A stretch of DNA of 64,000 bases, taken from NCBI GenBank assembly GCA_035934015.1, contig DASYYH010000026.1, positions 62,001 to 126,000 on the forward strand, in the 5' to 3' direction. Made by a program: the position numbers and the translations under genes. Source of the stretch: Candidatus Acidiferrales bacterium. GTDB lineage: Bacteria > Acidobacteriota > Terriglobia > Acidiferrales > UBA7541. The notes below the pieces were generated by a model. It was given only the letters and a program-made list of their open reading frames with translations, did not search any database and had not been told where the DNA came from. Shown here piece after piece: positions 43,809-48,110 of this stretch (position 1 is its first letter; the number at the start of each line of letters is the position of its first letter).

Positions 43809-43901
43809 GGAGAGGTGTCTGAGCGGTTGAAAGAGCCCGCCTCGAAAGCGGGTAGCCTGGCAAAACCGGGCTCGTGGGTTCAAATCCCACCCTCTCCGCC
43901 A
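43809..43901 (+). tRNA. tRNA-Ser (anticodon CGA)
   Basis: Acceptor GGAGAGG/CCTCTCC, anticodon stem CCCGC/GCGGG with loop CTCGAAA (anticodon CGA), and a long variable arm (GCCTGGCAAAACCGGGC). The T loop is TTCAAAT, and CCA is encoded. It reads UCG. Confidence 0.95.
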
Positions 43902-44660: not shown

Positions 44661-45632
44661 ATGGAACTTAGAAAAGATCCAATCACAAGAAGCTGGGTTG
44701 TAATCGGGCATGCCGGACACATGGAATTGCCGCGAGATCCCTGTCCGCTGTGTCCTGGCAATGAAGGCGATACGCCGACGATTCTGCAACTGCCCTCGCA
44801 TGGTCCCTGGCGTGTCCGAGTGATGCCCCATTTTCGGCCGCTTTATCGCATCGAAGGAGAGCCCGGGCGGACAGCCGAGGGCATTTATGACCGGATGAGT
44901 GGCCTCGGAGCCCACGAAATTATCGTGGACACCACGAACCACGTGAACGATCTTGCCGATGAGCCGGATGAGCAAATTGCGTTGGTTCTTGAGACCTACG
45001 CCAATCGCATTGCTGACTTGAAGCGCGACCCGAGGTTCAAATACGTTACTGTGTTCAAGGACCGCGGCGCAAATTCCGGCCAGGAATGGTTGCATGCGCA
45101 TTCTCAGGTAACTGCGACTACGTTTGTCCCGCGCCGAGTCCTCTATGAATTGCGCGCGGCGCGCGATTGGTTTCACGAGCGTGACCGATGCGTTTTCTGC
45201 GACATTCTTCGCCAGGAAGAGAAGCAGGGCAAACGCGTGGTGGATTCGCAAGCGGGGTACATTGCATTTTGTCCCTATGCTTCCCGCGTTCCCTTTGAGA
45301 CGTGGATTTTTCCACGCCGCCACAGCCACGAATTCGAAAAGCCAGGCGAAGATTTTCGCGCACTCGGTGCGCTATTCGGACGAACGATTCGCCGCTTGCG
45401 CGCTCTTTCTCAGGGCTATCATTTGGTTTTGCACACGTCGCCAAACGTCCTGCAGACGAAGGGCGAATTGAGCGAATATTGGCAGAACCTGTCCGGAGAC
45501 TACCACTGGCATATCGAAATTATGCCGGTCGTACCGACCAGCGAGAAGTCGTACATCCTAAAGGAAGTCTATTTCAACAGCCTTTTGCCCGAACAGGCCG
45601 CCGAGCTGCTTCGGCAGGTTGATCTGGGCTGA
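44661..45632 (+). CDS. galT: Galactose-1-phosphate uridylyltransferase family protein
   Basis: 323 residues of the HIT superfamily GalT branch. A zinc site CPLC is near residues 28-31, and the nucleophilic His sits in HAHSQ (145-149, normally HPHxQ). A second metal/phosphate site is near CVFC, and YHWHIEIMP comes late. It should transfer UMP between UDP-glucose and galactose-1-phosphate; an ADP-sugar or dinucleotide phosphorylase is a possible alternative. Its stop overlaps the start of the next gene (TGATG). No galK or galE is adjacent, so a purely Leloir role is not shown. Confidence 0.88.
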   Translation: MELRKDPITRSWVVIGHAGHMELPRDPCPLCPGNEGDTPTILQLPSHGPWRVRVMPHFRPLYRIEGEPGRTAEGIYDRMSGLGAHEIIVDTTNHVNDLADEPDEQIALVLETYANRIADLKRDPRFKYVTVFKDRGANSGQEWLHAHSQVTATTFVPRRVLYELRAARDWFHERDRCVFCDILRQEEKQGKRVVDSQAGYIAFCPYASRVPFETWIFPRRHSHEFEKPGEDFRALGALFGRTIRRLRALSQGYHLVLHTSPNVLQTKGELSEYWQNLSGDYHWHIEIMPVVPTSEKSYILKEVYFNSLLPEQAAELLRQVDLG

Positions 45633-46384
45633 TGGTGCGGGAATTCACCGGCGGAGGCACTTCGCGTGCAGAACGCGGCGGAGTGATTGCCAAACTGCTC
45701 GTCCTCGCCATTCTCATCGTGTTTTGTTTCCTCATTTATCTTGTGCGCGCACCCCTCTTGCGGCTCGCCGGAGGCTATTGGGTTGTATCTGATGCGCCGG
45801 CGAATTGCGATGCCATCGTGATACTCAGCGATGATGATTTCACGGCCGATCGCGCGGCTCGCGCCGCGGAGCTTTATCACGCGGGCTGGGCGCCACGCAT
45901 TCTCGCCAGCGGGCGCTGGCTGCGGCCCTACGCAAGCATTGCGGAATTGATGCAACACGACCTGGAAACACGAGGCGTGCCGAAGGAAGCGATCTTGCCG
46001 TTTGCCCACCAAGCCCCTGACACGCTCGAGGAGTTGAAAGATATTCGGCAATTCGTTCAACAACACGGATGGAAGCGCATCATGATTGTTACTTCGAATT
46101 ATCACACGCGGCGGACGCGGTATCTTGCCAGACATGTATTTCCGGCGACCGTTGCAGTTCTCATCGAGTCCGCTCCGGACGCTAACTACGATCCTGAGTC
46201 GTGGTGGAGGACGCGCGGCGGGCTCAAGATTTTCTTTCACGAAACCGTGGGGATGATTGTTGCCATGTGGGAAGTGCACACCGGCGGGACAAATTCGAAG
46301 CCGGCCATGCTATTGGCTCTATTTCCTTTCTGCGAACATTTTTCCTTGTCATTTTGTTTACAGACTTGCGGCTCTGTACTATAG
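45632..46384 (+). CDS. DUF218 (ElyC/SanA/YdcF-like) membrane protein
   Basis: 250 residues with one N-terminal membrane helix (LLVLAILIVFCFLIYLV) and a DUF218 domain facing outward: ANCDAIVILSDDDFTADRAARAAELYHAG, DTLEELKDI, and MIVTSNYHTRRTRY. Relatives such as ElyC and SanA act in envelope or lipid-carrier homeostasis. Its start overlaps the galT stop. The last 20 or so residues (FPFCEHFSLSFCLQTCGSVL) are odd in composition and overlie the downstream promoter. Confidence 0.85.
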   Translation: MVREFTGGGTSRAERGGVIAKLLVLAILIVFCFLIYLVRAPLLRLAGGYWVVSDAPANCDAIVILSDDDFTADRAARAAELYHAGWAPRILASGRWLRPYASIAELMQHDLETRGVPKEAILPFAHQAPDTLEELKDIRQFVQQHGWKRIMIVTSNYHTRRTRYLARHVFPATVAVLIESAPDANYDPESWWRTRGGLKIFFHETVGMIVAMWEVHTGGTNSKPAMLLALFPFCEHFSLSFCLQTCGSVL

Positions 46385-46385
46385 T
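46357..46385 (+). promoter_or_regulatory. Candidate promoter of the bactofilin gene
   Basis: TTTACA at 46357-46362, a 17-base spacer, then TATAGT at 46380-46385. It is embedded in the last codons of the upstream DUF218 gene; transcription would start near 46392, 68 bases before the bactofilin ATG. Confidence 0.5.
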
Positions 46386-46459
46386 TCCTGCACCGCAGAC
46401 GATTGCCTGGCACCCGGGCCTGGGGCGGTCGCGATAACTCATCCACAATGGAGGTTTCC

Positions 46460-47140
46460 ATGTGGCGGAAACAACCAGAAGTGAAGCCGTCTCCAGCAGT
46501 TGCGCCCGGAGCTCAGAATTCTCCCTCATACGCGCCGGCAGTGGAATCGCCAGTGCGTTCTTCAGCGCCTGCCACGGCTGCAAGCGGGCCTGCTTCCTCC
46601 TCGCCTTCGTCTTTTTCATCCGCTCCTTCGGCGTCGCCTGATGCCGCCGTTCTCACAAATGGAATTCGCATCAAAGGCGAACTTTCCGGCAAAGCGGATC
46701 TGGTTATCGATGGCGAAGTCGAGGGCAGTATTCGCCTGGTTGAATCGCGGCTGACGATTGGGCAAAGTGGACGCGTCAAGGCCAGCATTGAGGCCCGTGA
46801 AGTGACAGTTCGCGGATCCGTGGAAGGCAATGTTCGTGGCCGCGAGCGCATCGCGCTCGGTTCGTCTAGCCGTGTGAAAGGCGACCTCGAAGCTCCGCGC
46901 ATCGCTATTGAAGATGGGGCGAAATTCAAAGGCCGCGTGGAAATGGGTCCCACGGCAGACGCGCGCGAACATCAGAGCAAACGAAACGCGCCTGCGGCGA
47001 ACGCCTCGACACCGGCTATAACATCGCCAGCGCCCGCTGCGGCTCCGTTTTCTTCCGCCGCACCCGTACAAACGCCTTCGTCAGTAAGCGCTTCTCCGGC
47101 GAATTCCGCTGAGCCAATCGCAGCGCATACAAAGCCATGA
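46460..47140 (+). CDS. Bactofilin (polymer-forming cytoskeletal protein)
   Basis: 226 residues. The ATG at 46460 has GGAGG 6 bases upstream and is preferred to one 12 bases earlier. A disordered Ser/Pro/Ala N-terminus leads into the bactofilin beta-helix (VLTNGIRIKGELSGKADLVIDGEVEG to FKGRVEMG), with short repeated strands. A Pro/Ala-rich tail follows. Bactofilins polymerise without nucleotide and place cell-wall or envelope enzymes. It overlaps the next gene by an ATGA junction. Confidence 0.93.
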   Translation: MWRKQPEVKPSPAVAPGAQNSPSYAPAVESPVRSSAPATAASGPASSSPSSFSSAPSASPDAAVLTNGIRIKGELSGKADLVIDGEVEGSIRLVESRLTIGQSGRVKASIEAREVTVRGSVEGNVRGRERIALGSSSRVKGDLEAPRIAIEDGAKFKGRVEMGPTADAREHQSKRNAPAANASTPAITSPAPAAAPFSSAAPVQTPSSVSASPANSAEPIAAHTKP

Positions 47141-47844
47141 ACTGGATGAGCAAACCGCGTCTGGGAAGCAGTGCCGCGGCGCCGTTGCGCGTGAAGAAAT
47201 ACGATTCACTTTCGGCGTCAACTCACACGAACGGCAATGAAAACCTTCGCCTCTCCAACGGGCTTAAAGATTTCCTATGGCTCATCAGCGATGTTGAAAA
47301 TGGACGGCTTCTCGATCTCGGTGCAGTGTCCCAGGCCACACTCAGTTTTTTCATCGAACGAGGCTTTCGCGTGACGACCGATGATCTGCAGCGGTCCTGG
47401 GCGCAATTTCGTGCCATCGAGGAGGAAAAGCAGCGCAATCTCCCACCGAGCGATTTCAATGAACCGCTGACTGCCGAAGAGATTGCGCAGCAGTTCCTGC
47501 AAAATTCGCTGCAATATGCCGATGAAGAATTCAATGCTGTGCTTGTCTGGGATCTTTTCGATCATCTCGATGCAGACTTGCTTCCGAGCATCGCCAATCG
47601 GCTCTACGAAATCGTGCGTCCCGGTGGCGCGGTCCTCGGCATTTTTCACAGCAAACCTGCGGAGCGAATGTATCGCTACCGCATCGTAGATAACCAAACG
47701 ATCGAAGTGATTCCCATTGGACCGGCTAAGGCGACGGAGCGTGCATTTCAGAATCGCGAGATTTTGAATTTGTTTGGCCGCTTCCGTTCGGCCAAGACCT
47801 TTGTGGGCCGCGACCAGCTCCGCGAAGGCCTGTTTATCAAGTAA
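47137..47844 (+). CDS. Methyltransferase-like protein with degenerate motif I, coupled to bactofilin
   Basis: 235 residues. The fold pattern is class I methyltransferase: LLDLGAVSQAT in the motif I position, VLVWDLFDHLD, and YEIVRPGGAVLGIFHSK. Motif I lacks the usual GxGxG, so catalytic activity is doubtful. It starts 3 bases inside the bactofilin gene (ATGA), a sign of linked expression. A role as a partner of the bactofilin polymer is inference only. Confidence 0.7.
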   Translation: MNWMSKPRLGSSAAAPLRVKKYDSLSASTHTNGNENLRLSNGLKDFLWLISDVENGRLLDLGAVSQATLSFFIERGFRVTTDDLQRSWAQFRAIEEEKQRNLPPSDFNEPLTAEEIAQQFLQNSLQYADEEFNAVLVWDLFDHLDADLLPSIANRLYEIVRPGGAVLGIFHSKPAERMYRYRIVDNQTIEVIPIGPAKATERAFQNREILNLFGRFRSAKTFVGRDQLREGLFIK

Positions 47845-48071
47845 GTTGCTGAACCGCTGCAGGATTCCGCATCTGTGAGATTCTCCTTATTTTCTCTCTT
47901 GCGTTCTTGCGCGCATCGGCGTATTAGGGACTTGGAACATGAATCACTTGGAGCACGGATGGACGAAAGTGTGACTCCACCGGGCCAAGACTCCTGATAC
48001 ATTCACACCGCTCTTGCGGTGCGTGCCCTCCAGGCGCCCAAGCGACGCCGACTGGGCTTCAGGAAACGCCG

Positions 48072-48110
48072 AATCGGGGAATCGCAAGATTCCCCGATTT
48101 GCATTTTTGG
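48072..48110 (+). terminator. Rho-independent terminator after the bactofilin operon
   Basis: A perfect 12-base-pair stem (48072-48083 with 48088-48099) with a GCAA loop, followed by TGCATTTTT. It lies about 230 bases after the plus-strand gene stop and before the convergent DedA gene. Further T residues follow. Confidence 0.75.

Follow-up and report, generated by a model that had tools for sequence, protein, structure and literature searches.

Bactofilins polymerise under the membrane in a nucleotide-independent manner, as is established for the family. The closest described systems, as presented in the accessible parts of the reports, are the bacA-lmdC operon of Hyphomonas and Rhodospirillum, which combines a bactofilin with an M23 endopeptidase (PMC10945521), BacA-PbpC of Caulobacter, in which a bactofilin with an N-terminal membrane-targeting peptide has a membrane-bound client (PMC12448750), and BacP-PadC of Myxococcus, in which PadC is an adaptor of ParB-CTPase fold on the bactofilin (PMC12704722, PMC12448750). 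Here, we analyzed a stretch of 64,000 nucleotides from a Candidatus Acidiferrales bacterium (phylum Acidobacteriota, class Terriglobia; assembly GCA_035934015.1, contig DASYYH010000026.1, positions 62,001 to 126,000), referred to as the window, in which a bactofilin gene is directly followed by a gene for a methyltransferase-like protein, referred to as the partner. With a probability of roughly 0.55, we consider this protein to be a partner dedicated to a single bactofilin lineage, acting as an adaptor or regulator at the membrane and carrying a nucleoside pocket with an altered loop. The two genes are located in the window as follows:

46460..47140, forward strand: bactofilin; PF04519 at 91.0 bits (cut-off 27.9), domain residues 64-160 (about 46649-46939)
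47137..47844, forward strand: methyltransferase-like partner of 235 amino acids; Methyltransf_23 at 26.4 bits, just under the cut-off of 27.0

The bactofilin probably starts at the ATG at 46460, which follows a GGAGG at 46450-46454; the listed open reading frame (ORF) opens at a TTG at 46403. Its stop codon (47138-47140) and the start of the partner (47137) share four bases, confirming the ATGA overlap reported in a preliminary description made from the sequence alone. The same description had proposed the last gene as a candidate bactofilin partner, and the results presented below make it a good one.

Bactofilin and partner are neighbours in most of the loci analyzed. In 98 of 111 partner-carrying loci (150 loci in all), the bactofilin lies directly upstream on the same strand, and the pairing spans 43 family-level groups of Acidobacteriota. 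The gene-neighbourhood comparison suggested in the preliminary description therefore shows that the pairing is not confined to close strains. Because most of the 150 loci had been picked for carrying the partner gene, a second sample was recruited by bactofilin sequence alone, comprising the best 80 of 400 loci (75 labelled Acidobacteriota and five labelled as other phyla; the label of L228, which corresponds to G185 of the Acidobacteriota, is probably wrong). Within this sample, the partner is next door in 73 of the 74 loci with at least 700 bases downstream, a figure composed of a script count of 72 and of L204, which was added by hand because the frame matched there begins ahead of the end of the bactofilin. 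L250 is the locus without a partner, and two of the six short loci show part of one. Among class- and phylum-level loci, which were fetched on a profile match, 52 of 60 have the bactofilin just upstream of the partner. Of the 35 pairs from the order, 34 have a gap of −4 to +23 bases between both genes. Other neighbour families are far less widely shared: thioredoxin occurs in 23 of 153 loci, vs. 146 and 140 for the pair. The third largest neighbour cluster (129 loci) was disregarded, being made up of antisense shadow frames that lie opposite the pair. This gene arrangement is not due to chance, as the order is kept in relatives and the partner is under strong purifying selection. The conserved unit is the bactofilin together with the methyltransferase-like gene, and is smaller than the four genes, including a galT-like and a DUF218 gene upstream, that the preliminary description had grouped.

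Across the phylum, the partner is widespread. A single-protein search detected it in 50 of 61 relatives, which is an undercount, because the profile later found the partner beside the bactofilin in G045. Profile searches of 396 phylum genomes yielded 205 matches at E 1e-3 using the first alignment and, using a wider alignment, matches in 162 of the 396 genomes at E 1e-15 (137/354 good genomes, 93/210 genera); both evaluated no more than seven candidates in each genome and may undercount. None of eight bactofilins located on plasmids from other phyla has a partner-profile match within 3 kb, other phyla not having been searched systematically, and a comparison of the partner with plasmids gave one weak match, to an ordinary methyltransferase of Cytobacillus.

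Genomes hold several bactofilins; the genome of the window shows four matches (three clear, one weak) and one copy of the partner, which only one of these bactofilins adjoins. On a tree comprising 139 bactofilins (98 paired, 41 unpaired), the pairing takes 5 changes compared to a mean of 35.5 in shuffles, and 0 of 500 shuffles was as low. Paired bactofilins therefore cluster in one region of this tree, whose deep branches are weak, so that a single origin is not proven.

Two further bactofilins of this genome show surroundings of their own. The second (L148, G000:C8, 1242-3404) is located directly downstream of parA and parB, with Pfam matches to AAA_31/CbiA, ParB_N and Bactofilin, and this gene order may hint at a connection between bactofilin and the partitioning of chromosomes in Acidobacteriota. 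The third (L149, G000:C16, 2970-5287) has the N-terminus MWGSNEKKP and lies near lexA without a partner; a gene recognised by eye as SDR-like is found between it and lexA.

The AlphaFold2 model of the partner (predicted local distance difference test, pLDDT, 89.7; predicted template modelling score, pTM, 0.82) is confident from about residue 36 and contains the complete seven-stranded class I methyltransferase fold. Residues 35-235 align with 3e23 by VIA-align at Z 13.5 and a root mean square deviation of 2.9 over 146 aligned positions; the closest folds are 3e23, 7pd7 and 3sm3 (Z 12.9-13.5), and the partner profile reaches methyltransferases in the PDB with a best E of 2.4e-7. The absence of a GxGxG motif I, noted in the preliminary description for this one protein, turned out to be a trait of the whole family. 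Based on the alignment of 81 members, the following sites were distinguished:

47314..47334, forward strand: motif I site DLGAVSQ (D60-L-G62-A-V-S-Q), replacing DxGxGxG
47383..47385, forward strand: D83, the acid ending strand 2; D in 74/81 members, aligned with the D of CmoM 4htf
47548..47562, forward strand: W138-D139-x-x-D142 after strand 4; W in 80/81, D139 in 67/81, D142 in 67/81
47752..47826, forward strand: C-terminal signature NRxIxxLFxxF...RDxxRE; N206 in 62/81, R207 in 70/81, R229 in 68/81, E230 in 79/81

Within motif I, D60 is found in 78/81 members and G62 in 80/81, whereas the second glycine (position 64) is found in 0/81 and the third (position 66) in 29/81. Of the 35 members outside the class of the window, 28 have the third glycine, vs. 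1 of the 46 inside it. D83 occupies the position that binds ribose in class I methyltransferases. Given how this fold is known to be arranged, the cofactor/substrate side should include D60, D83, W138-D139 and the beginning of strand 7, and since conserved residues fall on this side, they suggest that a ligand pocket is maintained. Binding of S-adenosylmethionine (SAM), be it normal or altered, is possible in view of the complete fold and of the two acids at cofactor positions, which 78/81 and 74/81 members retain; the label pseudo-methyltransferase of the preliminary description may or may not apply.

Compared to the nearest relative (L051), the ratio of nonsynonymous to synonymous substitution rates (dN/dS) of the partner is 0.028, with 0.026 for galT, 0.146 for DUF218 and 0.227 for bactofilin; several more distant comparisons gave no ratio, as dS was saturated. 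Based on the value for the partner, we reject a decaying pseudogene.

Strong purifying selection also speaks for a rival reading, in which the protein, in spite of its unusual motif I, would be an active enzyme held on the polymer, using SAM to methylate either the bactofilin itself or a substrate in the membrane or envelope. The complete class I fold and the retained D60, G62 and D83 agree with such an enzyme, and the third glycine seen outside the class of the window produces the pattern DxGxxxG, which is known from active FtsJ/RrmJ-type enzymes. However, the second glycine is missing throughout, the third is also lost in the class of the window, and the conserved C-terminal NR...RDxxRE block is not known to have a counterpart; overall, we consider an active enzyme doubtful. 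A further, tentative possibility is that of a ligand-gated adaptor, i.e., a former methyltransferase with little or no methylation that would sit at the membrane on one bactofilin lineage, and through which the polymer or envelope clients would respond to SAM or a related nucleoside. Such a protein, if confirmed, would add to the bactofilin partners a class new for Acidobacteriota.

Both proteins of the pair start with a peptide that may be relevant for their localization. The bactofilin N-terminus reads MWRKQPEV, whose W2 hardly varies across an alignment of 54 paired bactofilins, and resembles MFSKKKK, the consensus given for the bactofilin membrane-targeting peptide in the accessible part of PMC12448750. 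The partner carries a short peptide as well:

47137..47160, forward strand: partner N-terminal peptide M-x-[WFL]-[LMF]-x-K-x-R in order-level members, followed by a variable tail

Position 6 is K in 27/37 and position 8 is R in 24/37 order-level members, and residues 1-30 form a flexible tail in the model (pLDDT 53-60). This peptide also resembles the membrane-targeting peptides of bactofilins (PMC12448750, accessible part) and is perhaps membrane-binding.

In the reading that we prefer, the bactofilin polymer would form beneath the membrane, and the partner would probably sit on the polymer of its own bactofilin lineage, at the membrane, which its short hydrophobic-basic N-terminal peptide may help it to reach. 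The pocket with the altered glycine loop would hold a nucleoside-type ligand, either SAM or a relative. The likeliest role of the partner would then be that of an adaptor or regulator tying the polymer to a process of the membrane or envelope, and it may take the position occupied by the M23 peptidase LmdC in other phyla.

Several observations weigh against this reading. Adjacent bactofilins are lacking in 13 of the 111 partner-carrying loci, although L044, one of the 13, is a fragment at the edge of a contig, and another (L108) is a second copy, the better copy of the same genome adjoining a bactofilin on another contig. In the Terriglobia genomes of L076, L080 and L081, the partner stands alone, and each genome keeps a bactofilin elsewhere; moreover, 234 of the 396 phylum genomes show no partner match at E 1e-15. 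Lone copies and the absence from many genomes argue against an obligate pair. No natural fusion of bactofilin and partner was found among the matched ORFs, and by distance correlation the pair does not stand out (partial r 0.48 for bactofilin-partner, 0.80 for galT-partner). Finally, our crude membrane-peptide score passes 5/29 paired-type bactofilin N-termini and also 18/22 GalT N-termini, and is therefore unspecific. The lone copies and the indecisive distance correlation would fit an explanation by co-transcription only, in which the genes share expression, or a chance of descent, but no joint function. Yet the adjacency has outlived the reshuffling of all other neighbours across the family-level groups, which makes this explanation highly improbable.

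Some of the loci departing from the common arrangement deserve mention in their own right. L076, L080 and L081 look as if the bactofilin had dropped out of the locus. The ORF upstream of their lone partner resembles, by eye, the mandelate racemase/enolase-type protein of L042, which lies upstream of the bactofilin there (Pfam match obtained for L042 only). In L031 (G020), the galT-like, DUF218 and methyltransferase-like genes are consecutive, with no bactofilin between them. L100, L123 and L124 (family code f27) encode a longer partner (365-371 amino acids by the chosen starts) whose profile match is split in two, suggestive of an insertion.

The genes upstream of the pair differ in their conservation. 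In the window, the following features are found:

44661..45632, forward strand: GalT-like protein; Pfam GalT domains over cut-off, linked in the order of the window only, outside the core pair
45632..46384, forward strand: DUF218 protein; PF02698 at 76.0 bits (cut-off 27.6), linked in the order of the window only, outside the core pair
46357..46385, forward strand: promoter-like site TTTACA-N17-TATAGT for bactofilin and partner; 10/12 to consensus, inside the 3' end of DUF218
48070..48101, forward strand: terminator-like hairpin of 14 pairs downstream of the pair; 11 terminator-like sites were found vs. 5.9 expected by chance

The first protein passes the Pfam cut-offs with GalP_UDP_transf (27.0 bits, cut-off 22.1) and GalP_UDP_tr_C (29.7, cut-off 29.2). 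We call it GalT-like because it misses the NCBIfam equivalog cut-offs (galT_1 74.3 vs. 102.1; PRK11720 90.6 vs. 448). As previously described, its ORF and that of DUF218 share a TGATG overlap, which agrees with the ORF coordinates. The preliminary description had combined all four genes into an envelope-building unit, which would place GalT, DUF218, bactofilin and partner in one pathway. All four are indeed found in order in 21 of the 22 order-level loci with enough sequence, and the genes of each half overlap or lie close together. However, this linkage ends with the order. DUF218 is located directly upstream of the bactofilin in 23/24 order loci vs. 0/130 elsewhere (0/19, 0/42, 0/69), galT and DUF218 together are absent from this position beyond the order (0/19, 0/41, 0/62), and galT alone occurs in 3/19, 0/41 and 0/62 loci.

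In addition, 31 of the 35 loci from the order have the halves separated by a promoter-like site scoring at least 10/12, about 80-120 bases before the bactofilin. Its mean best score is 10.8 vs. 7.8 in shuffles; the consensus variants were partly taken from the window, and the shuffles were scored likewise. Since this conserved site precedes the bactofilin and galT-DUF218 is linked in the order only, galT-DUF218 and bactofilin-partner are probably separate transcription units in tandem, judging from sequence features. The absence of DUF218 from the 130 loci outside the order and the promoter-like site between the halves led us to reject one four-gene unit, and the envelope-building unit of the preliminary description is not supported; a common pathway for all four products appears improbable. 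Beyond the order, sites of at least 10/12 were found in 3/17 class loci and 10/42 phylum loci, many of the latter 10 reading TAGACA-N17/18-TATACT. Outside the class of the window, this version lies 80-126 bases before the bactofilin in L084, L085, L086, L090, L092, L094, L127, L128 and L129.

Regarding the wider surroundings, a tRNA-Ser (cga) is located at 43809-43901, just upstream of the cluster, with a deaminase gene (Pfam) on the opposite strand between them. Downstream of the pair, a VTT-domain (DedA-type) gene (Pfam) is found on the opposite strand. Among the flanking genes tested (DUF218, partner, GalT-like, deaminase, VTT), none encodes an M23 peptidase.

Comparing the pair to known systems, and limited to the accessible parts of the reports, we find the closest parallel in bacA-lmdC: both are bicistronic with overlapping genes (17 bp in bacA-lmdC, 4 bp here), and both combine a bactofilin with one dedicated partner whose adjacency is kept over many species (PMC10945521). 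LmdC is membrane-associated, as the partner may be. However, LmdC is bitopic in the membrane and carries a domain that hydrolyses peptidoglycan (PMC10945521), whereas the partner has a cytoplasmic-type class I methyltransferase fold, and Pfam found no transmembrane or peptidase domain in it. The targeting-peptide-like N-terminus of the bactofilin recalls Caulobacter BacA, here by sequence resemblance only; PbpC, however, is a cell wall synthase that binds via its cytoplasmic tail (PMC12448750), whereas the partner is methyltransferase-like. Within the accessible parts, PMC10945521 refers to neither Acidobacteriota nor methyltransferases, and PMC12448750 to no methyltransferase-like partner. 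PadC offers a precedent for a soluble small-ligand-binding fold as an adaptor on bactofilin, the role proposed for the partner, but its CTP-binding ParB-CTPase fold is unrelated to that of a methyltransferase (PMC12704722, PMC12448750). With the class I SAM-dependent methyltransferases (Methyltransf_23/25/11), the partner shares the complete fold; it differs from them in lacking the second motif I glycine in 81/81 members and in having a C-terminal signature of its own.

Among the open PubMed Central papers searched, we found no publication on a bactofilin-methyltransferase pair. If the partner is genuine, it would represent a new kind of bactofilin client beside the cell wall enzymes and the ParB-type adaptor of the accessible reports, and a small metabolite could act on a nucleotide-independent cytoskeleton. 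Acidobacteriota are a major soil phylum whose cell biology is little studied, and the pair provides a two-gene target amenable to expression, deletion and imaging in a cultured representative. While bactofilin operons with dedicated partners are already known, these comparisons suggest that a partner built on a methyltransferase fold would be new and so far undescribed.

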